NCBI GenBank assembly: GCA_903862935.1
Contig: CAIOZY010000049.1
Location: 1 to 41,038 of the forward strand
Source: an uncultured Opitutaceae bacterium
Lineage (GTDB): Bacteria > Verrucomicrobiota > Verrucomicrobiia > Opitutales > Opitutaceae
Direction of reading: 5' to 3'
DNA length: 41,038 bases
The position numbers and the translations under genes are program-made. The stretch's first letter is position 1. Each line of letters begins with the position of its first letter. The notes under the pieces were generated by a model. That model was given only the letters and a program-made list of their open reading frames with translations, searched no databases and had not been told where the DNA came from. This document shows positions 239 to 18,651 of this stretch, in pieces.

Positions 239-766
239 CTATTTTTCGGACCTCGGCGCCAACCGCGGCACTGGAGCGATAAGCACGCCAATCGCTGCTG
301 TTTTCGATCCCGATATTTGCAGCGTATAGCTAACCCCCGACCGCAGTCGGAAAACGACGTATTTGTGGAGCTCTGATTTCGCGTTCTCCTCAAAGCTATC
401 TTCTCGGATCTCCTTGGCGGTAGCAGTCTCGACAACATCGATCCAGACCGACGCTCCGGCAAATACGCGGTACAGCCCTTCCGCGGGGACCATGAAGGAC
501 GGTAAGCCGCCTAAGGAGTCCGGGTTGGGAACTCGCCGAGGCTTCACCAGAAACTTGAGCTCCGCGTTTGGCCGAAGATCGAGGTCGACGCGCACACTTA
601 GCGGTAGTTCACCTCGAAAATGGGGAAGATCGATGGCAACCGGGGTTGCACGCCAGGTCGCGAGTTCGGTTTGTAAATCCTGCTTCCAACCCCCGGATTC
701 GATTTGGGCGAGAACGCCGCCAGCAAGCGCGCTCGTAACACAAATAAGGAGTAGGGCGCGCAACAT
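239..766 (-). CDS. Small exported protein of unknown function
   Basis: This is a 175-residue protein that I do not recognise. From the ATG at 766 it begins MLRALLLICVTSALAGGVLAQ, a clear signal peptide with a likely cleavage after VLA. A longer frame starts at a TTG at 811 but would put charged residues ahead of the signal, so I prefer 766. The mature part is mostly predicted beta strand, rich in Val, Leu and Arg, with no cysteines after the signal and no recognised motif. It probably acts in the periplasm or outside the cell. It lies downstream of the two-component operon on the same strand, separated by about 290 bases, so shared transcription is possible but not shown. Confidence 0.6.
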   Translation of the reverse strand: MLRALLLICVTSALAGGVLAQIESGGWKQDLQTELATWRATPVAIDLPHFRGELPLSVRVDLDLRPNAELKFLVKPRRVPNPDSLGGLPSFMVPAEGLYRVFAGASVWIDVVETATAKEIREDSFEENAKSELHKYVVFRLRSGVSYTLQISGSKTAAIGVLIAPVPRLAPRSEK

Positions 767-6388: not shown

Positions 6389-6619
6389 ATGAGCAGCCAG
6401 ATGCAGCGCATCACCTTCAACCCGAATCAATGCGGCGGACGGCCGTGCATCCGGGGCATGCGCATCCGCGTGAAGGACGTGCTCGACATGCTGGCCGGAG
6501 GCGCGACTGAGGCGGAAATCCTTGAAAGCTATCCGTACCTTGAGCGCGAGGATATCCAGGCCAGCCTGGAATATGCCGCGGCCCAGGTTGATCACGCGGT
6601 CCTATCGCTGGCCAAGTGA
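6389..6619 (+). CDS. DUF433-family antitoxin
   Basis: This 76-residue protein matches the DUF433 pattern: ITFNPNQCGGRPCIRGMRIRVKDVLDMLAGGATEAEILESYPYL and then a short helix. Family members are small winged-helix-like proteins that pair with PIN-like toxins and usually repress their own operon. The stop overlaps the start of the downstream gene as GTGA, so the two are translationally coupled. The order antitoxin then toxin fits the known two-gene arrangement. It is the first cargo gene inside the element's left end, where it could stabilise the element against loss. Confidence 0.85.
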   Translation: MSSQMQRITFNPNQCGGRPCIRGMRIRVKDVLDMLAGGATEAEILESYPYLEREDIQASLEYAAAQVDHAVLSLAK

Positions 6620-6951
6620 AGTTTTTGGTCGACGCCCAACTGCCCCCGGCGTTGGCCGGCTGGCTGCGCGAGGCCGGGCATGAGGCCGTCCACGTCGAGG
6701 ACGTCGGGTTGCGCGAGGCCGACGATGGGCCGATTTGGGAGCAAGCCTCGCAGACGGCGGCGGCGATCCTCACCAAGGACGAGGACTTTGCCGCGCGCGC
6801 GGCCCGTGCCACCAAGGACGAGCCGCCGGTGATCGTGTGGCTGCGCGTCGGCAACACGACCAACCCGGTGCTGCGGGCCTGGTTCGAGTTGAGGCTGCCG
6901 GGCATCCTGGAACTCGTCAAACAGGGCCATCGCCTGGTGGAAGTGGTCTGA
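6616..6951 (+). CDS. DUF5615-family PIN-like toxin
   Basis: This 111-residue protein starts at a GTG at 6616 inside the stop region of the DUF433 gene. It begins MKFLVDAQLPPALAGWL and carries AVHVEDVGL, then AILTKDEDFA, then PPVIVWLRVGNTT. This is the DUF5615 (PIN-like, Mut7-C-related) signature with acidic residues D6, D50-E52 (KDED) and others at the expected sites for metal-dependent RNA cleavage. Length is typical for the family (105-120). Together with the upstream DUF433 gene it forms a VapBC-like addiction pair. RNase activity is inferred from family, and the target is unknown. Confidence 0.85.
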   Translation: MKFLVDAQLPPALAGWLREAGHEAVHVEDVGLREADDGPIWEQASQTAAAILTKDEDFAARAARATKDEPPVIVWLRVGNTTNPVLRAWFELRLPGILELVKQGHRLVEVV

Positions 6952-7392: not shown

Positions 7393-9666
7393 CTAAAACT
7401 CGTCGCACGCCACCTGTTCGGCCGAGACCCCCGCCTGCGCCAGCATCTTTGACGCCGCCTGAACCATCGCCGGCGGTCCGCAAAGATAGTACTCGATTTC
7501 CCCGGCGTTCGGATTGCTCTTGAGGTAGTCTTCGAAAAGCACGTCGTGGACATGGCCAACATGGCCCGACCAACGGTCTGTGGGCAACGGCTGGGACAAT
7601 GCCGGGTGGAATATGAAGTTGGGGAATGCCCGCGCCAATCCTTCGAAGTAATCGGCGTAGAAGAGTTCCTGCCGCGACCGCGCGCCGTACCAGAAACTCA
7701 CCTTGCGCTTGGTCGCCTGAGTCTCAAAGAGGTGTGAGATGTGGGAGCGGAGCGGAGCCATGCCGGACCCGGCTCCGACGTACACGATCTCCGCATTCCC
7801 TGACTTGATGTGGAAGTTGCCGAATGGTCCGGCCGCAGTCACCCGGTCCCCCGGCTTCAGCCGGTGCATGTAGGCTGAGCCTGCCCCGGCCGGACAATCC
7901 TGCCCCTGCGGGGGCGTGGCGATCCGGACGTTGAATCGCAGAACCTTGTCCACTGTAGGATTCGCCGCGATCGAGTAGTTGCGCCGGATCGGCATCGGGC
8001 CTTCGGACCGAAAATTGAATACGTGCTGCGCCTTCCATACCGAGGCATACGGTTCGCGCACGACGATCTTGTCGAAGGCGATTTCCCCATAGGCCGGAAT
8101 CTCGAACTGCAGGTACTGTCCAGGCAGGTAGGTGGGTAGCGTGGATCCCTCGTCGGCCTCGAGCACGAGTTCCTTGATGAAGGTGGCCACGTTCTCATTG
8201 CTTACGACCCGGAATTTGAATGCCGGGCGGTTCCCATTTCCGTTGTTGGCAGAGTGGAGATCCAGGAAGATCTTCCCATCGTACTCCTTCGCGCGATAGG
8301 CGCGAAGCGCGATGCAGGCGGGCGGCCGCTGAGGCGAGCCGTCGCGAATGTCGAAGCGCCCATTGTGCTTCGGGCACTCGATCAGCTTGCCTTTGACTAG
8401 CCCTTCCGCGAGGTGCGTGTTCCCGTGGGTGCACGTGCCGTCCGTCGCATGGAGCTCTCCCTCTTCAGTGCGATAGATCGCATAAGTCTTCTGGTCGTGG
8501 TCGAAGCGAATCACGTCCTCCTTCTGAAGAAACGAACTCGCCCCGACTTCGACCCAGCCGTCGACCGGTTTTCCCTTTGCTTGGAAGATTTGAACGGTCG
8601 GCGGTGCGTCGGCCCTGACCGTCGGTGTGGGTAGCCGGCGGCGAACAAAGTAACCCGGATCCCTGACCTGACGCAGCACGGTTGGCACGATCTCCCGCCA
8701 TGCGTCCAAGAGGCCGTCGTACGCCGGCGGGCAGTCGTCCTTGATCAGCTCGTGCAGGCGCGGCAGGTTGTGGTACGGCACCAATGGGAACATGTGGTGC
8801 TCGACATGGTAATTCATGTTCCAGTACAGGAACCGATTCATCGGATCCATGTATAAGGTCCGGCAGTTTAGCCGGTGGTCGAGGACGTTCTCCGCCAGTC
8901 CGGCGTGCTGCGTCACCCCGTAGAATTGTATCAGCCAGGAACCGTAGACGGTGGGAAGCCCCACGTACATTAGCGGCAGGAGGCTGTGGGTGGCTACCGC
9001 AATTCCCCCGACGGTCGCGTAGATCAGCAGGTAGATGCGCGCACGGACGAATATGGCGGGATATTCGGACTCGGGTACGTACGTCTTTTCCTCGGAATTG
9101 AGGCGACCCAGACTGTGAAGGACAACATTCCGGAAGAAGGTGCGGACCTGCACCACGCCGAAGATTTTCGCGAGCATCCGGGACAGATTCGGCGGCCGAG
9201 GCACGGCGATCTCGGGATCGCGTCCAACAATGATCGTGTCGCTATGGTGCCGCGTGTGGCTCCATCTCCATGGGACGGATTCCCGCATTACCATGAATGA
9301 AGCGACCTCGTACAAAGCGTTATTGAGCCAATCCGTCCGGAACGCTGTTCCGTGCGAGGACTCGTGCCATCGGGCATCCGAGGTCGACGCATATAGCGCT
9401 CCGTAGATGGCGAAGGGGATAATCGCCCACCAACTGCCCCAGAGCCGCGCGCCGAGGACGGCGCAGTCAATGATCAGACCAAACCAGATCGCCGTATCTC
9501 GCAACGCCGGACCGTCTTTCCTCACAAGCAATTCGCGCAGGGTCTGGCGCGACACAGGAGACTGGTACCAAGTCGCTTCCGCCAAGCCTTTGGCGATCGC
9601 CAGCTCCGTGTCCTTACCCACGAGACTGTAGTCGCTCAGCTGAATCGATGTATAAAGAGACTTCAT
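7393..9666 (-). CDS. Fused desaturase-type oxygenase, Rieske ferredoxin and NqrF-like reductase (MocD-MocE-MocF fusion)
   Basis: This 757-residue protein joins three modules. Residues 1-340 are a membrane di-iron desaturase/hydroxylase with histidine boxes HESSH (101-105), HTRHH (137-141) and HVEHH (287-291) and hydrophobic helices around 58-95 and 208-250. Residues about 355-470 are a Rieske [2Fe-2S] ferredoxin with C412-x-H414 and C431-P-K-H434. Residues about 480-757 are a ferredoxin reductase with FAD motif RNYS (562-565), NAD motif GAGSGMAP (631-638) and CGPPAM near the end, closest in look to NqrF. In rhizopine catabolism MocD, MocE and MocF are separate oxygenase, ferredoxin and reductase proteins that demethylate a methoxy-sugar. 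Here one chain could pass electrons from NADH to the di-iron site. The substrate is unknown. It lies near an AraC regulator, URO-D-like enzymes, an MFS permease and a TonB receptor. Confidence 0.88.
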   Translation of the reverse strand: MKSLYTSIQLSDYSLVGKDTELAIAKGLAEATWYQSPVSRQTLRELLVRKDGPALRDTAIWFGLIIDCAVLGARLWGSWWAIIPFAIYGALYASTSDARWHESSHGTAFRTDWLNNALYEVASFMVMRESVPWRWSHTRHHSDTIIVGRDPEIAVPRPPNLSRMLAKIFGVVQVRTFFRNVVLHSLGRLNSEEKTYVPESEYPAIFVRARIYLLIYATVGGIAVATHSLLPLMYVGLPTVYGSWLIQFYGVTQHAGLAENVLDHRLNCRTLYMDPMNRFLYWNMNYHVEHHMFPLVPYHNLPRLHELIKDDCPPAYDGLLDAWREIVPTVLRQVRDPGYFVRRRLPTPTVRADAPPTVQIFQAKGKPVDGWVEVGASSFLQKEDVIRFDHDQKTYAIYRTEEGELHATDGTCTHGNTHLAEGLVKGKLIECPKHNGRFDIRDGSPQRPPACIALRAYRAKEYDGKIFLDLHSANNGNGNRPAFKFRVVSNENVATFIKELVLEADEGSTLPTYLPGQYLQFEIPAYGEIAFDKIVVREPYASVWKAQHVFNFRSEGPMPIRRNYSIAANPTVDKVLRFNVRIATPPQGQDCPAGAGSAYMHRLKPGDRVTAAGPFGNFHIKSGNAEIVYVGAGSGMAPLRSHISHLFETQATKRKVSFWYGARSRQELFYADYFEGLARAFPNFIFHPALSQPLPTDRWSGHVGHVHDVLFEDYLKSNPNAGEIEYYLCGPPAMVQAASKMLAQAGVSAEQVACDEF

Positions 9667-10157: not shown

Positions 10158-10436
10158 TCAAAGTCGGTCTGGATGGTTATATGATGTTGATACGACTGAC
10201 GCTGGTTGTCCATCCCTCCCGGAGGAAAGGCCCGGCTCGGCGGGCCTGACCGCAGCTAGGAATGGAGATAAGTTCGACGCGTAGACTGCGGGGCTCCTGT
10301 AGCCGAGCTTACTGTGTGGTCGACCCTGGTTGTAATGAACCCGGAAGTCCTCGATGACGACTCTGGCCTCGGTTAGGCTCCAGAGCTGTTCACTATTGAG
10401 GCATTCATCGCGGAAAGCGCGTCTGGCATTATTGCC
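10158..10436 (-). pseudogene. IS3-family transposase remnant (C-terminal part)
   Basis: The minus-strand frame contains FRDECLNSEQLWSLTEAR, then VIEDFRVHYNQGRPHSKLGY, the C-terminal signature of the IS3-family DDE integrase core with the final catalytic glutamate in RDE. The upstream part of orfB and all of orfA are missing. Homology starts abruptly at about 10436 and the frame beyond that is not transposase-like. It separates the oxygenase gene from the cupin gene and may mark a rearrangement that placed them together. Confidence 0.75.
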
Positions 10437-10474
10437 AGCCGGCCCAAAACGGTGAGCTTTCTCGCATGGGCACG

Positions 10475-10909
10475 CTAGCCAATGCGGGCCGGGAGTACGC
10501 TCGCGAAATCCCAACCCAGCTCCCGACAAACAGTTCGAATATGCTGTTCATATGTCGGCTCGTCTTTGGGACGGCCGCCCGAGAAACAGTCGACCGCCAG
10601 ATAACGGAAGACCGTATCCTCCATGGCACTGGCCGAGTGCAACGTAGAAGTCGGAATACGCACCACATCGCCTGGTTTCACAGGGTATTCCTGCCGTTCC
10701 TTTCCGATTCTAAAAACACCTCGCCCCTCGATGACATAGAATATTTGTTCCATATCGTCGTGCTTGTGCAATGGCGAGGTCTGGCCTGGTCGAAGCACCG
10801 TGATAAATACTTCCGCCGAAAGCGACTCGGAGCGGTCCATCACAAGGTCGTTGGCGTGCGTAGGAAAAACGTAACGCGGAGGATTCTCTGTAGGGAAGAC
10901 GAATTTCAT
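10475..10909 (-). CDS. Cupin-domain protein
   Basis: This 144-residue single-domain cupin starts at the ATG at 10909 (MKFVFPTENPPRYVFP). The frame is open further upstream, but that part has no family resemblance. The two cupin motifs are visible: PLHKHDDMEQIFYVIEGRG with metal ligands H, H and E, and PGDVVRIPTSTLHSA with the last histidine. Cupins of this size bind a metal and often act on small metabolites or sense them. The function here is not deducible. It lies on the same strand as the oxygenase fusion, separated by an IS3 remnant, and divergent from the AraC regulator, so the AraC protein may control it. Confidence 0.8.
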   Translation of the reverse strand: MKFVFPTENPPRYVFPTHANDLVMDRSESLSAEVFITVLRPGQTSPLHKHDDMEQIFYVIEGRGVFRIGKERQEYPVKPGDVVRIPTSTLHSASAMEDTVFRYLAVDCFSGGRPKDEPTYEQHIRTVCRELGWDFASVLPARIG

Positions 10910-11002
10910 GGGATATCGAGAGCTAAGTGAACTTAGATCATTGGCGGCATTAAGTACGCCTGTGGTTTTGGGAACAGTGACATTGAAGCCAATGTGCAAG
11001 CG

Positions 11003-11152
11003 ATGAGACGCTGGGCGAGAACTTTGGACCCGCAATTCAACGCATCCGACTGCTTCTGCTTGGTGCGCGCACTGATGCCGAACCCGACCAAGCCGCTGCC
11101 TCGGGGGGATAGCCTTCGCGGTTGCTGTTGCCAAATCGGCGCACCGCCCTAA
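11003..11152 (+). repeat. Dispersed repeat with a short conserved reading frame, copy A
   Basis: A 49-codon frame begins MRRWARTLDPQFNASDCFCLVRAL. A second copy at 18745-18870 begins MTRWARVFDPQFPALDRFCLARSL, with 16 of 24 residues the same. The DNA matches well around TGGGCGAG and GACCCGCA. The tails differ. It lies in the gap between cupin and AraC genes. It could be a small dispersed element, a remnant of a longer gene or a conserved micropeptide. I do not know the family. Confidence 0.5.
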
Positions 11153-11161
11153 CCTGTTGGG

Positions 11162-12085
11162 ATGCCCGAAGCGTTGCGACCCGATTACATGCAGCTTCCT
11201 CCGCGTGACCGGGCCTATTGGCGTGCGCCGGACCGGACAGAATTGCCGCTGCTATATTTGGCATGGGGTTCGCGTCAGTTTGGAAGTGATCCGATTTTCC
11301 CGGCTTTACATCCGGGATGGGTTTATGTCGTCGTGGAAAGCGGCTCGCCTAGTCTTGTGTGCAACCGACGATCTGAGCCGATCAAGAGCCCGTGTGTTCT
11401 TATCTTTCGGCCGGATATATTAATTGGCTGGAATGACAACTTGCAGCGTGTCACCCGGTTCTTAATCTGGATGTGGCGGCATCCCGTTACCACCGATATC
11501 GCCACGCTTGGGGCGAATGTATTCCGTTATTATTCACTGGCTCATTCCGATCTCAAGCTCCTCCAATTGTTGCACGCAGACTGTCGACGAGAAACCCAAC
11601 TCCTGGATCGGCATAGTGTAAATGCGCTTAACGGGCTCCAGCGCACGCTTGAGGCGCGATTGGCTAGAATTTCGGAATCGAATTCTTCGTTATCGCCGAA
11701 ACAGAATTTAAATCGCGCCCAAATGTGGCTGAAGCAGCACCTCGACTGCCATCGGCCTTTATCGCGGCTCGCCGACTATCTCGCGCTATCACAGTCCTCA
11801 GTGCAGCGACTCTTCCGCCAACACGCCGGGAAGACAGTGAGGCAAATTATCAATGAGGGCCGGCTGCGGGAAGCCCAATGGATGCTCACCAAAAAAGGCA
11901 TGTCCATCAAGGAGGTGGCTTTTCGTCTCGGTTATCGCCACGCGCATGATTTTAGCCGCGCATTCCTGAGGAGTAGCGGCGTTATGCCTTCGGCGGTGCA
12001 GGGCAGTCTGAGCGCGAGCAGCCCGAGTGAAACGAAAGATCGACGATCGGGTTCGTTGTCGTCCTCAAGATTATCGACATTATGA
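11162..12085 (+). CDS. AraC-family transcriptional regulator
   Basis: This 307-residue protein has a variable N-terminal sensing region (about 1-165) and a C-terminal AraC/XylS double helix-turn-helix at about 185-275: LSRLADYLALSQSSVQRLFRQHAGKT, then MSIKEVAFRLGYRHAHDFSRAFLRSSGVMPS. The last part is the family signature. The N-terminal half has no clear cupin motif. It is transcribed away from the cupin gene and toward the MFS gene, with which it overlaps by six bases tail to tail. It likely controls the neighbouring uptake and catabolism genes in response to their substrate, by analogy with sugar-linked AraC regulators. The effector is unknown. Confidence 0.9.
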   Translation: MPEALRPDYMQLPPRDRAYWRAPDRTELPLLYLAWGSRQFGSDPIFPALHPGWVYVVVESGSPSLVCNRRSEPIKSPCVLIFRPDILIGWNDNLQRVTRFLIWMWRHPVTTDIATLGANVFRYYSLAHSDLKLLQLLHADCRRETQLLDRHSVNALNGLQRTLEARLARISESNSSLSPKQNLNRAQMWLKQHLDCHRPLSRLADYLALSQSSVQRLFRQHAGKTVRQIINEGRLREAQWMLTKKGMSIKEVAFRLGYRHAHDFSRAFLRSSGVMPSAVQGSLSASSPSETKDRRSGSLSSSRLSTL

Positions 12086-13411
12086 GATGGCGGCCCGCGG
12101 TTCGCGGCGATCTGTTCGATCGCAGTCTCTGGCCAGCGGAGTGTACCGTGGAGACAGCAAGTGCATTACGACCAAGGCCGCCACATAGCTTACTGCGGCG
12201 ATTTCAAAAAGTTGAAGATAGCTTCCCGACCGTTCCAAGACAGAGCCTGCGTACTCTGCAAAAGCCATCGCGGTGACCGCGCTTGCTGTTCCGCCGACCC
12301 CAACGACGGATGCGACCGCGCTCATAGGAAAAAGGTCCGAGACAATAGTAAACAAGTTTGCCGCCCACCCCATGTGGCCCGCCGCGGCTAGGCCGATCAG
12401 CCATACTGCGCTGTCGGCATTCCTGACAAATGGCACGTAAAATACCGGCACGGTGCAACAGGCGCAGAGAGCTAGCGTCAGCTTTCGCGCGACATTAAGA
12501 GAGAGTCCCTTCCTCATGAGCAAGGATGCCACCCAGCCGCCGCCAATGCTTCCTACCGCTGCGAGCGCATAAATGGTCACCATCGGTCGGCCGACTTCGC
12601 TTAGGCGCACGCCAAAACGATAGTCCAGGAATTTCGGCGTCCAGTAGAGATAAAACCAAAATATCGGGGCCGAAAGCGCCCAACCGACGATGCAGACCCA
12701 ACTTTGCCGATAACCAAGTATTCCCGTCCATTTGATGGTCACATCCTTCGGCGTTGGTTTCCCCGCATGACCTTCCGGACCTCCAGCCGCCGTCGTTCGA
12801 CCCGGGTTGCTTTTCCGGTAAAGCATCTGCCAAAACAGCAGCCAAATGAAGCCGGATGCCCCGAGCGCCAGGAAACAACTCTGCCAGCCGTATCTAATCG
12901 CGAGCCAGGGCACGATAAGGGGAGCCAGGATGCCGCCGGCGTTGCAGCCGGAGTTGAAAAGGCCGGTGGCAAATGCCCTTTCCTCCTTCGGGAACCATTC
13001 GGCGATCGCCTTTATCGAAGCCGGGAATGTGCAGCCTTCGCCTAGTCCCATTGCAAAGCGGGCAAATCCAAAACCCAACACACTGCGCGCCAAGGCGTGG
13101 GCGCTCGCTGCCATGCTCCAGATCACGCCCGCCAGGGAATAGCCAAATTTCGTCCCATAGACGTCAATCAATTTTCCAAATCCCATGTAACCAATCGCAT
13201 ACGCCGCTTGAAATGCGGTCACAATATGTCCGTACTCCCGTTCGCTCCACCCGATCTTTCTTTGGAGTGTGGGTGCCAAGAGAGATAGTATCTGGCGATC
13301 GGAATAGTTTATCAAGGTGGCGGCAAAGAGCAGACCGCAAACAACCCATCGATAGGCGCTGGTTGGACGATTGGCCGCTCCGCCAAATGAGGATTCACGC
13401 ATCGACGGCAT
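12080..13411 (-). CDS. MFS permease of the anion:cation symporter (hexuronate ExuT-like) type
   Basis: This 443-residue inner-membrane protein has about twelve transmembrane segments. The N-terminal signature ATLINYSDRQILSLLAPTLQRKIGWSEREYG and the segment FARFAMGLGEGCTFPASIKAIAEWFPKEERAFATGLFNSG are typical of the ACS family, which moves organic anions such as hexuronates with protons or sodium. It is preceded on the same strand by two URO-D-like genes (80-base gap), suggesting one operon in which it imports a compound that has crossed the outer membrane through the nearby TonB receptor. The start at 13411 gives the usual short cytoplasmic tail. A second ATG lies nine bases further in. Substrate is inferred only broadly as a small organic anion. 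Confidence 0.88.
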   Translation of the reverse strand: MPSMRESSFGGAANRPTSAYRWVVCGLLFAATLINYSDRQILSLLAPTLQRKIGWSEREYGHIVTAFQAAYAIGYMGFGKLIDVYGTKFGYSLAGVIWSMAASAHALARSVLGFGFARFAMGLGEGCTFPASIKAIAEWFPKEERAFATGLFNSGCNAGGILAPLIVPWLAIRYGWQSCFLALGASGFIWLLFWQMLYRKSNPGRTTAAGGPEGHAGKPTPKDVTIKWTGILGYRQSWVCIVGWALSAPIFWFYLYWTPKFLDYRFGVRLSEVGRPMVTIYALAAVGSIGGGWVASLLMRKGLSLNVARKLTLALCACCTVPVFYVPFVRNADSAVWLIGLAAAGHMGWAANLFTIVSDLFPMSAVASVVGVGGTASAVTAMAFAEYAGSVLERSGSYLQLFEIAAVSYVAALVVMHLLSPRYTPLARDCDRTDRREPRAAIS

Positions 13412-13491: not shown

Positions 13492-14664
13492 TCATCCATT
13501 TCGAAACTCCACCCAGGCGTCGCGAAACCATTCGATTACGGACCAAGGGGTCTGAGTGGAGGTGTTGCAGCTCGCAGACAGCATGAAACGATGCCGATAC
13601 GGCTCCAGCCGGGAAAACAGCTCCTCAACGTAGCGCAGCACTTGATCGCGGGTCTTGAACCCTTCGGTCTCGATCGGGGTAATGCCGCCGGTGATGATAA
13701 GCCTCCCGTTGCCCAGCTGCATGGCCTCGTCGAGCTGCAAATCACCCAAAGGTGGATAGGCCACCCCTTCCAGGCCGTCGACCCCCAGCGAGGCGATCAG
13801 GGGCAGCACGGCCCGCTGGCGGCCGCAGGCGTGGATGAAGAAGACGGCACCCGCGGCCCGGCACAGCGCGGCCGCCCGCTCGTAGAAGCTCGCCGAGCAG
13901 CGCTCGAGGTAGCGGGGCGAGTGGAAGGCGGAGTCGAGGTTGTCCATCGCGGTCATGGCGGCCACCCCGCTGCCGAGCATCTGGCGCACCAGATCAAGCT
14001 GCGCCTCCTCGTGGACCCTCATCCAAGCGGCGCAGCGCTCGGGGTGGTCTTCGAGCAGGTAGACGGCGCTGTCGGCACCGGCGGCCAGGTGCAGCATCTT
14101 GAGGGGGCTGAATAGTTCGCCCGCGTTGACCAGGCCGTCGTTGCCCACCTCGCGCTGCCAGCGCTCGAACCGCTCGGAGACGAAGCGCCAGCGCCGAGCC
14201 GCCACGAGTGCCTCGAAGGCGTCGGCCTCCCGGTCGAAGTCCTCCAGGAGGAACTTTTCCTGCACCAGCGTCGAGCCCGTGAAGACGAATCGCAGCCGTT
14301 CAGTCAATGTGCCGGCGCGGGTGCGATAGGTCCTCTCCGTAACGATGTCGCGGCCCTCAGTGCGGCGTACGACTTCGAGCTCGATGCCGTCCAGGACCTC
14401 GTCGGCCAGTCCTCCAAACCAGCACTGGGTGGGATCGCAGTACACGTTGCGGCTAAATACGTCGAGCCCGAGATAGCGGATGAGGTCTAATTGCGAACTG
14501 CACGTGCGCAATTGAGCAGGCAGCAAGCCGTGGTCGCGGTGATGGGTGAACCATTGCCAGTAGTTCGGCGCATAGACAAAACGGCCCGGTCGGTCGCGGC
14601 GCAGAATGTGGGTGACAAGCTCGCGTCGCGTGGCCCCGTCTTTAGTCGTGGCAGATCCGCTCAT
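13492..14664 (-). CDS. Uroporphyrinogen decarboxylase-like protein (methyltransferase-type), first copy
   Basis: This 390-residue protein starts at the ATG at 14664 (MSGSATTKDGATRREL). The frame is open 150 bases upstream, but that part is not family-like. It has the URO-D/MtaA/CmuA barrel layout: DRPGRFVYAPNYWQWF near the N-terminus, FIHACGRQ in the second half and MLSASCNTST near the end. The H-x-C plus distant C pattern matches the zinc ligands of MtaA-type methylcobalamin methyltransferases, so a methyl-transfer or related demethylation role is possible. Decarboxylation of uroporphyrinogen is unlikely given the context. The gene looks richer in G+C than its neighbours, which may point to separate acquisition. 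It lies between a second URO-D-like gene and the MFS permease. Confidence 0.8.
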   Translation of the reverse strand: MSGSATTKDGATRRELVTHILRRDRPGRFVYAPNYWQWFTHHRDHGLLPAQLRTCSSQLDLIRYLGLDVFSRNVYCDPTQCWFGGLADEVLDGIELEVVRRTEGRDIVTERTYRTRAGTLTERLRFVFTGSTLVQEKFLLEDFDREADAFEALVAARRWRFVSERFERWQREVGNDGLVNAGELFSPLKMLHLAAGADSAVYLLEDHPERCAAWMRVHEEAQLDLVRQMLGSGVAAMTAMDNLDSAFHSPRYLERCSASFYERAAALCRAAGAVFFIHACGRQRAVLPLIASLGVDGLEGVAYPPLGDLQLDEAMQLGNGRLIITGGITPIETEGFKTRDQVLRYVEELFSRLEPYRHRFMLSASCNTSTQTPWSVIEWFRDAWVEFRNG

Positions 14665-14911
14665 GAAAACTTTATGAGGCGGGCAAAACATGCAGCCGGA
14701 AGATCGATCCCGGCGCGGCTTCCATCTGTTTCCCGCCGTGGCCCACTTCTTCGTCGCGCCGTGTCGCCTTCGCGCCAAGAACCTTCCGGTCTGACCCAGG
14801 AATGGGTCTTGCAAAAAATCTGGCCGTGGTTGCCAAGATCAAATGGGTCCTGTCCGCTCTGTGGCATTAAGTTCGATGGGACGTTTAACGACATCATCTA
14901 ACGAAGTAATG

Positions 14912-16072
14912 CTAGTAACGCCCAGCCTCTTTGGCCGCTTCAATCATCGCAACGACGTTTTCTCGCGGTGTTGGCTTCTCGAGATAATCTGAGGTGGAGA
15001 AAATGTACCGCCCGCCGGGTTTGCCGATTTGCACGATCTCCGTGGTTTTCTTGGCAACCTCCTGCGGCGTAGCGACCTTTAGAAAGTCCACTTGATCGAG
15101 GTTACCGAGCAGGCAGATGGAATCTCCGAGTGCCGCCTTGGCTTCGATTAGCCGGTTGTCGCCACGTGGCGGCTCGCTCACTGTTTCCCAGACGGTCATG
15201 CCCAAGTCACGATAATTGTCGTACAGCGACTTCGCGTTGCCGCAGTTATGATAGATGCTGAACTTGCCACCTGCGTGAATGGCATCAATAACCCGCTTTT
15301 CATAGGATTGTACAAATCTGCTGAAGAAGTTTGGCCCAGTGGTGGTCCCGCCCGCCATGTGCCCCTGAATGCCTACGCAATCGATCGCCGTTTCCCCGAG
15401 TGCTGTGCAGTAATCCGACATCGCGACCGCAATGGCATCCATCAAAGCGCGGTATCCTGATTCATCCTCGTAGGGTGCGGTGTAGAGGTTGTCTAGGCCG
15501 CGCAAGTCAGCGCAGAAGTTGAACACCCCGGCAAAACCCCACGGCGCAAGCACGCCCTGTTCTCCAATTATGGCTCGCCAACACGCGGCAATATCTCGCA
15601 TCTCGCTGCGATCCTGATCGTCCAAAGCGGGCAGATATTTCAGGAATGCGTCGATATCGTCGGTATCTGCCAGCAAGGGGCGGGTGACCATGAATCGCAC
15701 TCCCGCCGTCGCTGCGCCGCTCTCGGGACCAGTCTCCTCCTGCACCATCGTACGACTGGGCGTAACGATCTCTAGTTTTCGCGTAAGCATGCCGTTGCTG
15801 TGCCACTGAGTCTTTTGTAACTTCCAATTCGGGTACTCCCGGCGGAAGAAATGCGGCTGCTGCAACGCGCAATGTTTGGCCATCAAGTCGAAGTCGAGCT
15901 CAGTCGCCATTTCAACCGCGTCAATAACACGGTCTACCTTGGGCTTTTGCGGATAATAGAAGGATAGATATTCCTCCTGCACAAATGGCGCTACCGGCAC
16001 ACGGTCGGCTTGCTGGCCCCGCATGGTTATCAAGAGTCGTTCGCGTGAGGTCATGCTGTAATTTGCTCTCAT
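14912..16072 (-). CDS. Uroporphyrinogen decarboxylase-like protein, second copy
   Basis: This 386-residue protein starts at 16072 or, closer to the family norm, at an internal ATG at 16054 (MTSRERLLITMRGQQADRVPVAP). It has the URO-D family N-terminus, a central WGFAGVFNFCADLRG, and YHNCGNAKSLYD as the H-x-C-G motif. The C-terminal site where MtaA-type enzymes have a zinc-binding cysteine reads IFSTSDYLEKPTP here, so one ligand is replaced. It may use other ligands or a different chemistry. It shares only the general fold signature with the downstream copy, so the two are not recent duplicates. It is probably the first catabolic gene of the operon after the TonB receptor gene, from which it is separated by about 220 bases. 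Confidence 0.8.
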   Translation of the reverse strand: MRANYSMTSRERLLITMRGQQADRVPVAPFVQEEYLSFYYPQKPKVDRVIDAVEMATELDFDLMAKHCALQQPHFFRREYPNWKLQKTQWHSNGMLTRKLEIVTPSRTMVQEETGPESGAATAGVRFMVTRPLLADTDDIDAFLKYLPALDDQDRSEMRDIAACWRAIIGEQGVLAPWGFAGVFNFCADLRGLDNLYTAPYEDESGYRALMDAIAVAMSDYCTALGETAIDCVGIQGHMAGGTTTGPNFFSRFVQSYEKRVIDAIHAGGKFSIYHNCGNAKSLYDNYRDLGMTVWETVSEPPRGDNRLIEAKAALGDSICLLGNLDQVDFLKVATPQEVAKKTTEIVQIGKPGGRYIFSTSDYLEKPTPRENVVAMIEAAKEAGRY

Positions 16073-16293: not shown

Positions 16294-18651
16294 TCAAAAA
16301 TCAAACTTAGTGGCGAGTCGGATCCCGATGCTGGGATAGGAGGCCAGCGACGAGCGGCTCGACGCTTGCCACCAAAATCTTTGATTCAAGGCATTATCCA
16401 CGTTCAAGCTGAAACTATAGTGGTGGAATTTGTATCCGGCCCCGGCGTTGATCACGTTAAAGGCTGCGACATAAAAGCCGACTTGCTCCGGGACGCCAAG
16501 GGAGGTGAATCCGTTGACGTTCTCACCCGCGACGTCGCCTTGATGGATCAAGCCGGCAAATACATTGGCATTCTTCAGCGGACCCTCAGCAAATCGGTAG
16601 TTGAGCAATAGCGATGCCATGTTGTCGGGGATGTTGCGCCTTCGTCGGCCAACGAAGTCTCGAAGCTTCTGATCCGTGTAGCTCATGATCACCGATAAGT
16701 TCTTGGTGATGCCGCCGTCGACATTGACCTCGTAACCGTGATTCACCAGGTTCGCATAGAGCAGTGGAATGGTGGATTGGCCAAGATTGTAGAGTGGGTT
16801 CGTGGACGAAACGTTGCTTTCCGAAAGCTGAAAGTGGTCGACCGAAACGGCAAGGCGGTTATCGAAGAAATTGCACTTCACGCCGAACTCATATTGTTTT
16901 CCGGCGTTCCAAAGCGGCGTACTGTCAGCGACGCTAGCGTTAGTCGAGAATGAGGAATAGACAGAGACATTAGGCAGCACCTTGCAGAGGATTCCAGCCA
17001 TATAAGAATCGTGCCAAGGTTGTACTGAGGGCATTAATGAGTTTCGAGTATCGGAGAAAGTATGATCACTGTTAGGGGCGCCCGAGCCCATTAGCCCGAT
17101 ACCGGGCAGGTAGTAACTGTTAATTGAATAGTCGTTCACGTGGGCCCAGGTGCGCGATGCGCCCGCCGTCAGGAACAGGTGATCGTTCAATAGACCAACG
17201 CGGAGATAGCCGTACGTCTGACCGATCCATCCCGTTTCCGGGAGCTCCGTGCCGAGCGTGTTGAATTGTGATATCGGCGGCCGCGGCACAGGGTAATAAC
17301 CCACCGCAAGATTGGCGGGGGGCAGTGTCTTATCAAAGATGATGAAGTTCATCGGGACCCTCCCCCGCTGATATTGGATCCCGAGCACCGGTTGGATGGA
17401 AACACCTCCGACTTTAAAGTTGCCAGCATAGTCGTTTTGGACCTGAATTTCCCGGGCCGTTGAGTGGGCGTATGCCCCGAAGACCGGCAGGGCAGCCGGA
17501 TTGATCGAAGCCACTGAAGTTTCTTTACCGCTGGCCGGGTCCCACGACTCCGGCAGAGAGGGGGCGGGATAACCATACACGGCGGTCATCTGATCGCAAT
17601 AGAGTTGGGCAGCGAACCGCATATTGACCCGTTCACTCAAGGCCGCTGTCAGTTCAGCTTCTGCTGTATTGTCTCGAATAGTGCGATAGCTCCAACTTGC
17701 GTCACCGTTCCAGCCGTTGTACTGAAATCCCGGTTGAGGTGTCTGGGAAACGGTTGCTCCACCGACCGTGTCGGGTGTGTATATTTCCTCACCATTGAGA
17801 TTGCATAGCATGGCAGCCCCTCCAAACATGGTCTGCTGGCCGAAATATTTGACCATAAGTTGGGCCTTGTCCGAAAACTTATAGGTGAACTCGGCCGCCC
17901 CGGAGAAGATAATGTAGGATCCAGGCATAGAGGTGTGGGCATCCTGGTAGGCGCCAATGAGTCGATAGGCCATGTGCCTGCCATCTCCGATAGGGCCGGT
18001 CGTATCGATTGTGTACTTGTTGGCGTCTCGATTGCCGACTTCCGCCGAAATGTTAGTCCTTTGCTGGAAGAGCGGGGACTTGCTGATGAGATTAACCGTG
18101 CCGCCGGGTGAACCGTTCGGGGAAAGGATCGTATCAGGACCCATGATTAGTTCGACGTGATCGGTGAACACCGGATCGACATTGGCGTCGCCCCCTGTCG
18201 CCATTGGGAAGATAAAACCCGAAAAGCTGTCGAGCGTCCGGTTCATACTTTCGAACCCGCGGAAGGTCATGCGGTCCTGGATTCCCGCCGTGCCCGAACC
18301 GCGACCCGAGCTAATGCCGGCAAAATATTGTGCGACATCAAAGAGGGTGTCCGGGGCGAGGTCCTGGATTAACGCCGGAGTGATGACGTTGACCGTCATC
18401 GGAGTATCGATAATCTTGCTCGCAATGCGCGAAGCGGACATCGCATCGGACGCTTGATACTGATTAGCCGCGGAGCCCGTGACGCCAAATGCTGGCAGCA
18501 CGACGATGCCCCCGGCAACGGCAGAGGAAGACGCGGGGGCCTGATCGACCGGCAGGCTCGTTTGACCATTGCCGGATAAAGCTGCAGTGAGGGCAAAGGT
18601 CACGCCGATCAGAAACTGCATTGTCGAGAGTGATCGAGGTTTCTTGTTCAT
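16294..18651 (-). CDS. TonB-dependent outer-membrane receptor
   Basis: This 785-residue protein begins with a signal peptide (TMQFLIGVTFALTAALSGNGQ). It continues with a plug domain at about 75-200 (DTPMTVNVITPALIQDL, DRMTFRGFESMNRTLDSF, ELIMGPDTILSPNGSPGGTVNLISK) and a C-terminal 22-strand barrel. The last residues are IRLATKFDF, ending in the aromatic residue needed for outer-membrane insertion. Such receptors import siderophores, vitamins or oligosaccharides using energy from TonB. The VLPAFGVTGSAANQY segment just after the signal is common in Opitutaceae receptors in my recollection. The substrate is unknown, but its place upstream of the URO-D-like and MFS genes on the same strand suggests uptake of the compound they process. 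Confidence 0.93.
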   Translation of the reverse strand: MNKKPRSLSTMQFLIGVTFALTAALSGNGQTSLPVDQAPASSSAVAGGIVVLPAFGVTGSAANQYQASDAMSASRIASKIIDTPMTVNVITPALIQDLAPDTLFDVAQYFAGISSGRGSGTAGIQDRMTFRGFESMNRTLDSFSGFIFPMATGGDANVDPVFTDHVELIMGPDTILSPNGSPGGTVNLISKSPLFQQRTNISAEVGNRDANKYTIDTTGPIGDGRHMAYRLIGAYQDAHTSMPGSYIIFSGAAEFTYKFSDKAQLMVKYFGQQTMFGGAAMLCNLNGEEIYTPDTVGGATVSQTPQPGFQYNGWNGDASWSYRTIRDNTAEAELTAALSERVNMRFAAQLYCDQMTAVYGYPAPSLPESWDPASGKETSVASINPAALPVFGAYAHSTAREIQVQNDYAGNFKVGGVSIQPVLGIQYQRGRVPMNFIIFDKTLPPANLAVGYYPVPRPPISQFNTLGTELPETGWIGQTYGYLRVGLLNDHLFLTAGASRTWAHVNDYSINSYYLPGIGLMGSGAPNSDHTFSDTRNSLMPSVQPWHDSYMAGILCKVLPNVSVYSSFSTNASVADSTPLWNAGKQYEFGVKCNFFDNRLAVSVDHFQLSESNVSSTNPLYNLGQSTIPLLYANLVNHGYEVNVDGGITKNLSVIMSYTDQKLRDFVGRRRRNIPDNMASLLLNYRFAEGPLKNANVFAGLIHQGDVAGENVNGFTSLGVPEQVGFYVAAFNVINAGAGYKFHHYSFSLNVDNALNQRFWWQASSRSSLASYPSIGIRLATKFDF

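Follow-up and report, generated by a model that had tools for sequence, protein, structure and literature searches.

In rhizobia, the MocD, MocE and MocF proteins together demethylate rhizopine. The corresponding genes are, in the text available from two sources, required for or involved in the catabolism of rhizopine (3-O-methyl-scyllo-inosamine), which is the methyl ether of an inositol amine (PMC10107442, PMC3538637). Excerpts of two further papers describe P450 O-demethylases that act on 6-O-methyl-D-galactose in marine bacteria (PMC8360166, PMC10033563). A ferredoxin-ferredoxin reductase-AlkB fusion (ferr_ferrR_AlkB) has been expressed and is active, and has also been misannotated, according to the accessible part of PMC8918992; a ferredoxin-reductase-AlkB fusion is also named in a legend of PMC10113152. 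The literature searched yielded no description of an oxygenase-Rieske-NqrF-type fusion, and no papers that combine methylated sugars, Verrucomicrobia and an oxygenase. Here we analyse a stretch of 41,038 nucleotides (the window) from an uncultured Opitutaceae bacterium of the Verrucomicrobiota (assembly GCA_903862935.1, contig CAIOZY010000049.1), in which a MocD-like oxygenase, a MocE-like Rieske domain and an NqrF-type reductase are encoded by a single gene.

Results

Domain order and conservation of the fused chain

The 757-residue chain that the original prediction placed at 7393-9666 was found at those coordinates as an intact frame on the minus strand, which opens with an ATG at 9666 and whose stop codon ends at 7393 (Table 1). 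Pfam assigned FA_desaturase to residues 78-316 (E 4.4e-36), Rieske to 371-457 (2.9e-16), FAD_binding_6 to 558-619 (2e-5) and NAD_binding_1 to 630-739 (3e-16), giving the order oxygenase, Rieske, reductase. Structure prediction, which had been suggested as a check on that order, agreed with it: the AlphaFold2 model of the whole chain, based on the 81 aligned fused proteins, contained all three domains (mean pLDDT 78), and the mutual placement of these domains is uncertain (pTM 0.55). The oxygenase part alone (residues 1-355, 63 relatives) reached a pLDDT of 88 and a pTM of 0.84. The first-linker segment, 337-371, spans 31-41 residues across the 81 fused proteins.

Table 1. Features of the fused gene and of its surroundings in the window.
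Feature	Residues	Position	Strand	Basis
Whole fused gene, 757 aa		7393..9666	-	ORF and 80 full-length relatives
Membrane diiron oxygenase domain (FA_desaturase)	78-316	8719..9435	-	Pfam, invariant His, MocD clade, model pLDDT 88
His boxes of oxygenase domain	101-105, 137-141, 287-291			
First linker	338-370	8557..8655	-	length and sequence vary among relatives
Rieske [2Fe-2S] domain, MocE-like	371-457	8296..8556	-	Pfam, TIGR02377, invariant ligands
NqrF-type FAD/NADH reductase module	484-757	7396..8217	-	TIGR01941, PDB NqrF by sequence and fold
DUF5615/PIN-like small protein, converging on fused gene		6616-6951	+	Pfam
Cupin gene, upstream of fused gene		10475..11134	-	Pfam Cupin_2
AraC-family regulator, divergent		11162..12085	+	Pfam HTH_18
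MFS transporter		12080..13411	-	Pfam MFS_1
UroD/MtaA-like gene		13492..14814	-	Pfam URO-D 5.2e-9
UroD/MtaA-like gene		14912..16072	-	Pfam URO-D 4e-27
TonB-dependent receptor		16294..18651	-	Pfam Plug; TIGR01783 127 bits, under its cut-off

Eighty relatives could be aligned along the full chain at 58-71% identity and, because they align over its whole length, the fusion is neither a product of chance nor of a frameshift, which contradicts the suspicion that a sequencing error had created it. With three domains in one frame and 80 end-to-end relatives, the single-chain oxygenase-ferredoxin-reductase arrangement is natural. Ligand conservation, counted column by column on the alignment of the 81 fused proteins, bore out the earlier description of the His boxes, Rieske ligands and FAD/NAD motifs as intact. 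All 81 sequences share the eight histidines of the three boxes (H101, H105, H137, H140, H141, H287, H290 and H291), H254, the Rieske ligands C412, H414, C431 and H434 (C-x-H, C-x2-H), R562 and S565 of the FAD motif, G631, G633 and G635, and C729; Y564 is retained in 79 and E756 in 75. Against three near relatives, third codon positions had changed in 0.52-0.60 of codons and second positions in 0.15-0.18, a pattern resembling that of a protein under purifying selection.

Kinship of the three modules

A tree of 108 oxygenase domains separated 104 MocD-type rows (83 fused, 13 proteobacterial split, 7 Verrucomicrobial split and 1 two-domain) from 4 desaturase-like paralogues, with a support of 84 on the root branch of a tree made by a quick method, without bootstrap and with long outgroup branches; L103, whose match fell in two frames, and L137, a second entry of the L033 gene, were left out. 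The oxygenase domain is 52-56% identical to proteobacterial MocD-like proteins, and the DesB lipid-desaturase model gave the fused chain 39 bits against a cut-off of 500. The domain profile matched AlkB (8f6t) weakly (E 0.0091 over 100 positions). That structure was absent from the Foldseek listing for the oxygenase domain alone, in which the two matches under E 0.001 were chains of the Chlamydomonas Ycf2-FtsHi complex (TM 0.54-0.59, 13-14% identity); we would not take the lack of a known diiron enzyme from this list as a new fold. The Rieske domain is 44-56% identical to MocE-like proteins, and the MocE model TIGR02377 covered it from position 2 to 100 of 101 with 110.9 bits, below the curated cut-off of 136.15.

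The reductase is of a different kind. TIGR01941, the NqrF equivalog model, matched the last 274 residues with 299.8 bits against a cut-off of 295, through its C-terminal part only, the match beginning at model position 131 of 405. The module also matched NqrF chains in the PDB by sequence (E 8.4e-79), is 42-50% identical to NqrF of Verrucomicrobiota and, as modelled, superposed on the NqrF FAD domain with Z 40.4 and 1.2 A over 278 residues, in a whole-chain fold comparison that in effect covered residues 446-757. The plant-type ferredoxin motif is present in 19 of 19 NqrF and in none of the 81 fused proteins, whereas the Rieske motif occurs in none of the 19 and in all 81. In a reductase tree that took in 49 of the 81 fused proteins, a branch with support 100 separated the 19 NqrF rows from the fused rows and a very distant outgroup; the great length of the outgroup branch makes the rooting uncertain. 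By sequence and fold, the reductase is the FAD/NADH half of NqrF, with a Rieske domain in place of the ferredoxin that NqrF itself carries.

The designation 'MocD-MocE-MocF-type' in the original prediction thus holds for the MocD-like oxygenase, as placed by the tree, and for the MocE-like ferredoxin; it fails for the reductase, which is NqrF-type. A MocF identity was rejected, as the Pyr_redox_2 and Reductase_C domains of three proteobacterial MocF proteins were not found in the fused chain. Of 14 proteobacterial loci with split mocDE, 11 have an adjacent MocF-like gene; the other three (L142, L143 and L148) are 3-4 kb long and may end too soon. None of the eight Verrucomicrobial split or two-domain loci has a MocF-like gene alongside, and the 81 fused loci gave one weak match (27%, L071). 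Fisher values for these MocF counts were calculated once the counts were known, and on related loci. In the host genome, which is 95.55% complete, no NqrB match was found; apart from the fused gene, the search for NqrF-like genes gave only a 30% match to a different reductase.

Distribution and origin of the fusion

A search for the same fusion elsewhere, as had been proposed, found it in dozens of genomes, which makes it a conserved family rather than an isolated case, the opposite of an outcome in which relatives always keep the parts separate. Separate parts do occur, in Proteobacteria and in some Verrucomicrobiota. At least one near-full-length fusion was present in 41 of 200 genomes of the host's family (45 genes) and in 27 of 387 in a sample of the phylum in which two candidates were scored per genome (31 genes), the host being included in both counts. 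A species-level genome collection held 461 stretches encoding a relative; the best 80 of these span the query from residue 1-13 to 757 and, by their titles, come mostly from Verrucomicrobiota, with others from Planctomycetota, Chloroflexota, Acidobacteriota, Kiritimatiellae and Lentisphaerae and from a single MAG of the Betaproteobacteria. Beyond the Verrucomicrobiota the fusion is sporadic. With the seed genome of each search included, it was found in 1 of 349 genomes in the phylum of L033 (Betaproteobacteria), where 27 genomes have a MocD-like match of at least 45% and no fusion, in 2 of 246 in that of L036 (Planctomycetota), in 1 of 251 in that of L041 (Chloroflexota) and in 2 of 247 in that of L068 (Acidobacteria). 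One more genome of the last has a match broken at residues 501-506 inside a single open frame of 836. Among 72,556 plasmid records, none covered 80% of the query in one place.

In the oxygenase tree all 83 fused rows and the two-domain row form a single clade (SH-aLRT 100). Its sister comprises five split MocD of Verrucomicrobiota (union support 96); neither group includes the remaining two split Verrucomicrobial rows or the proteobacterial MocD. This branching fits a history in which the fusion arose once, in or near the Verrucomicrobiota, and then spread to other phyla, with possible loss in some lineages. The two-domain protein (L112:7661-9112, 483 residues), an oxygenase plus Rieske chain without a reductase, is nested deep inside the fused clade, so that its reductase was most likely lost secondarily. 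Elsewhere, L113:7469-8295 is a broken reductase-module stretch, 52-57% identical to the fused one and probably a gene remnant, with no oxygenase domain within the 14 kb read. In a distant second family, represented by L135 and L136 (genomes G406 and G279), a single open frame encodes an oxygenase (38-39% identity) together with a Rieske domain but no reductase.

Gene neighbourhoods

Neighbours of the fused gene were compared within 2.5 kb (81 loci), at 2.5-6.5 kb (73 loci) and farther away (65 loci), on genes called by a longest-ORF script that missed some and made false calls of others. Mutarotase (aldose 1-epimerase) genes were found in 24 of 81 loci in the near zone, leaving 57 without one, in 0 of 73 in the middle zone and in 1 of 65 beyond. 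TIM1-type barrels (10, 0 and 0 loci), Gfo/Idh/MocA dehydrogenases (7, 0 and 0) and aldo-keto reductases (4, 0 and 0) followed the same order of zones, sulfatases (6, 2 and 1) and AraC (5, 1 and 1, and 5, 4 and 0) were only loosely tied to the near zone, and RhaT (3, 1 and 2) showed no tie to it; because the loci are related, these counts are not independent. The mutarotases close to 24 of the 81 genes make the demethylation of methoxy sugars or polyols, which the original prediction had put forward, a sensible guess. Counted over the 25 commonest of 73 Pfam families, 103 directly adjacent same-strand genes included 17 Aldose_epim, 9 AP_endonuc_2, 5 UroD, 5 MFS_1, 4 Aldo_ket_red, 2 RhaT and 2 L-rhamnose mutarotase. 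A control of 100 distant genes (25 commonest of 105 families) held at most one each of Aldose_epim, AP_endonuc_2, UroD and Aldo_ket_red, with 2 MFS_1 and 1 RhaT. Split mocDE operons on two plasmids likewise have TIM barrels and Gfo/Idh or inositol dehydrogenase genes nearby; a third plasmid cluster has no such genes within 8 kb.

UroD-type genes occur in 10 of the 81 loci, the window included. In three Chloroflexota loci (L041, L045 and L052) a gene for a 212-residue corrinoid protein, UroD-type genes and the fused oxygenase lie in one same-strand run; that of L041 also holds a DUF1638 gene. In another locus a cytochrome P450 gene (L022:4878-6137) lies 3.9 kb upstream of the fused oxygenase, in a same-strand run that also includes a sugar ABC transporter.

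In the window itself, the surroundings of the fused gene contain neither a mutarotase nor a TIM barrel or Gfo/Idh gene. Between the fused gene and the cupin gene lies an ORF (10158-10529, minus strand) that by eye resembles an IS3-type integrase remnant. A comparison at E 1e-8 gave no relative of the window's cupin gene or TonB gene in the vicinity of other fused genes. Its AraC gene has relatives of 30-36% identity in six other loci, which adjoin the fused gene in L074, L080 and L093, and its MFS gene has relatives of 46% identity near the fused gene in L058 and L101. The protein closest to the window's fused chain is that of L058, with 74% identity in the oxygenase domain. At this locus an MFS and a UroD gene lie immediately upstream of the fused gene and a TIM barrel gene follows it, so that the MFS/UroD link is common to the branch of L058 and the window; the UroD gene of L058 is 66% identical to that at 14912-16072. 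The sole solved relative of the protein encoded at 14912-16072 is the methylcobalamin:CoM methyltransferase 4ay7 (E 2.6e-5). Five B12-binding_2 matches lie elsewhere in the host genome; one of these proteins, a corrinoid protein 44% identical to that of L045, adjoins a TonB receptor 49% identical to the window's (L156:5642-9832, host contig C25).

Discussion

We consider it fairly probable that the fused chain is a membrane-bound diiron monooxygenase, self-sufficient and dependent on NADH, whose role in a sugar-catabolic cluster is to O-demethylate a methylated sugar or polyol. The evidence for this reading comprises the three modules and their order, the intact ligands, the single clade and the sugar-catabolic neighbours of many relatives; cofactor occupancy, electron path, reaction and substrate are what we infer. 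Electrons would run in the reverse of the chain order (oxygenase, Rieske, FAD, NADH). NADH would reduce the FAD in the C-terminal NqrF-type module, from which single electrons would pass to the Rieske [2Fe-2S] domain and on to the His-ligated diiron site of the membrane domain. The variable first linker would suit a Rieske domain that swings between the FAD and the membrane part. The reduced diiron site would activate O2 and hydroxylate the methoxy carbon, the product would break into formaldehyde and the free sugar, and the latter would be passed to mutarotase, isomerases and dehydrogenases.

It might be objected that the fusion is a sequencing or assembly artefact that joins neighbouring genes, as the host assembly is a draft of 62 contigs and split relatives exist. 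We give this practically no credence, however, as the same chain is found in 80 further records, including the complete genome CP011265.1 and the isolates NZ_BMXI01000006.1 and NZ_JAENIL010000034.1, and split proteobacterial operons are accompanied by a reductase of a different superfamily. It is just as hard to believe that the chain is NqrF, part of the Na+-translocating NADH:quinone reductase. The TIGR01941 score above cut-off points that way, and because of it automatic annotation may name the chain a Na+-NQR subunit, an annotation trap in which an NCBIfam equivalog model would call an oxygenase a sodium-pump component. The match, however, begins only at model position 131 and leaves out the plant-type ferredoxin, in place of which the chain has an oxygenase and a Rieske domain, both intact. 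The absent plant-type ferredoxin and the lack of an NqrB match in the 95.55% complete host genome rule out NqrF as a name for the whole protein.

A further possibility, which we regard as unlikely but well worth weighing, is that the same self-sufficient oxygenase catalyses another reaction, such as hydroxylation of a non-methoxy sugar or polyol, demethylation of a methoxy-aromatic, or hydroxylation or desaturation of a lipid. The Pfam family is, indeed, FA_desaturase, the window neighbours (TonB receptor, MFS, two UroD, cupin and AraC) name no sugar, and most loci have no mutarotase nearby. In contrast, the nearest relatives of the oxygenase are MocD and not lipid desaturases, sugar genes are locally enriched, and the DesB score of 39 bits falls far short of its cut-off. 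We also entertain, as a rather improbable idea, a two-way module for methoxy-sugar demethylation in which, with O2, the fused chain would yield formaldehyde and, without O2, a UroD-type methyltransferase and a corrinoid protein would take the same methyl group; it is suggested by the three Chloroflexota loci that hold all three kinds of gene in one run, and by the window's two UroD-type genes together with a corrinoid gene elsewhere in the host genome.

The fused family opens a testable route to the question of how methylated sugars may be used by Verrucomicrobiota. Because a multicomponent membrane oxygenase in one-piece form works without partner proteins and can be produced from a single gene, it is useful for mechanism and biocatalysis. 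We regard the enzymatic interest claimed in the original prediction as moderate: the family is conserved and directly testable, but an AlkB precedent exists and the substrate is putative. In the available text of a review of AlkB partners, which cites a 2001 paper, no ferredoxin-fused desaturase had been found (PMC8918992); the fused family would be one, if a Rieske protein counts as a ferredoxin. The reductase swap is of interest too, since an NADH module related to that of a sodium pump is combined with a Rieske carrier that replaces its own ferredoxin.

MocD-MocE-MocF resembles the fused chain in the kinds of oxygenase and Rieske protein, in a gene order that equals the order of the fused domains, and in the TIM barrels and Gfo/Idh genes near two of three plasmid clusters, as beside some fused genes. 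It consists, however, of three proteins with a Pyr_redox_2 plus Reductase_C reductase, whereas the fused family has one chain with an NqrF-type reductase. NqrF shares the C-terminal FAD/NADH module and the order membrane part, [2Fe-2S], FAD, NADH, but has an N-terminal anchor and a plant-type ferredoxin where the fused chain has a diiron oxygenase and a Rieske domain. The P450 O-demethylases, as the excerpted papers present them, oxygenate a sugar methoxy group to give formaldehyde and the free sugar, the reaction that we propose for the fused chain too; they are, however, haem enzymes with separate partners, of an unrelated sequence class. Another three-domain, self-sufficient membrane diiron oxygenase is ferr_ferrR_AlkB which, in the accessible description, carries its partners at the N-terminus of an AlkB enzyme, whereas those of the fused chain are C-terminal Rieske and NqrF parts joined to a MocD-type oxygenase. 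The AlkB three-domain fusion is a published precedent, from which the fused family differs in oxygenase, iron-sulphur domain, reductase and order.
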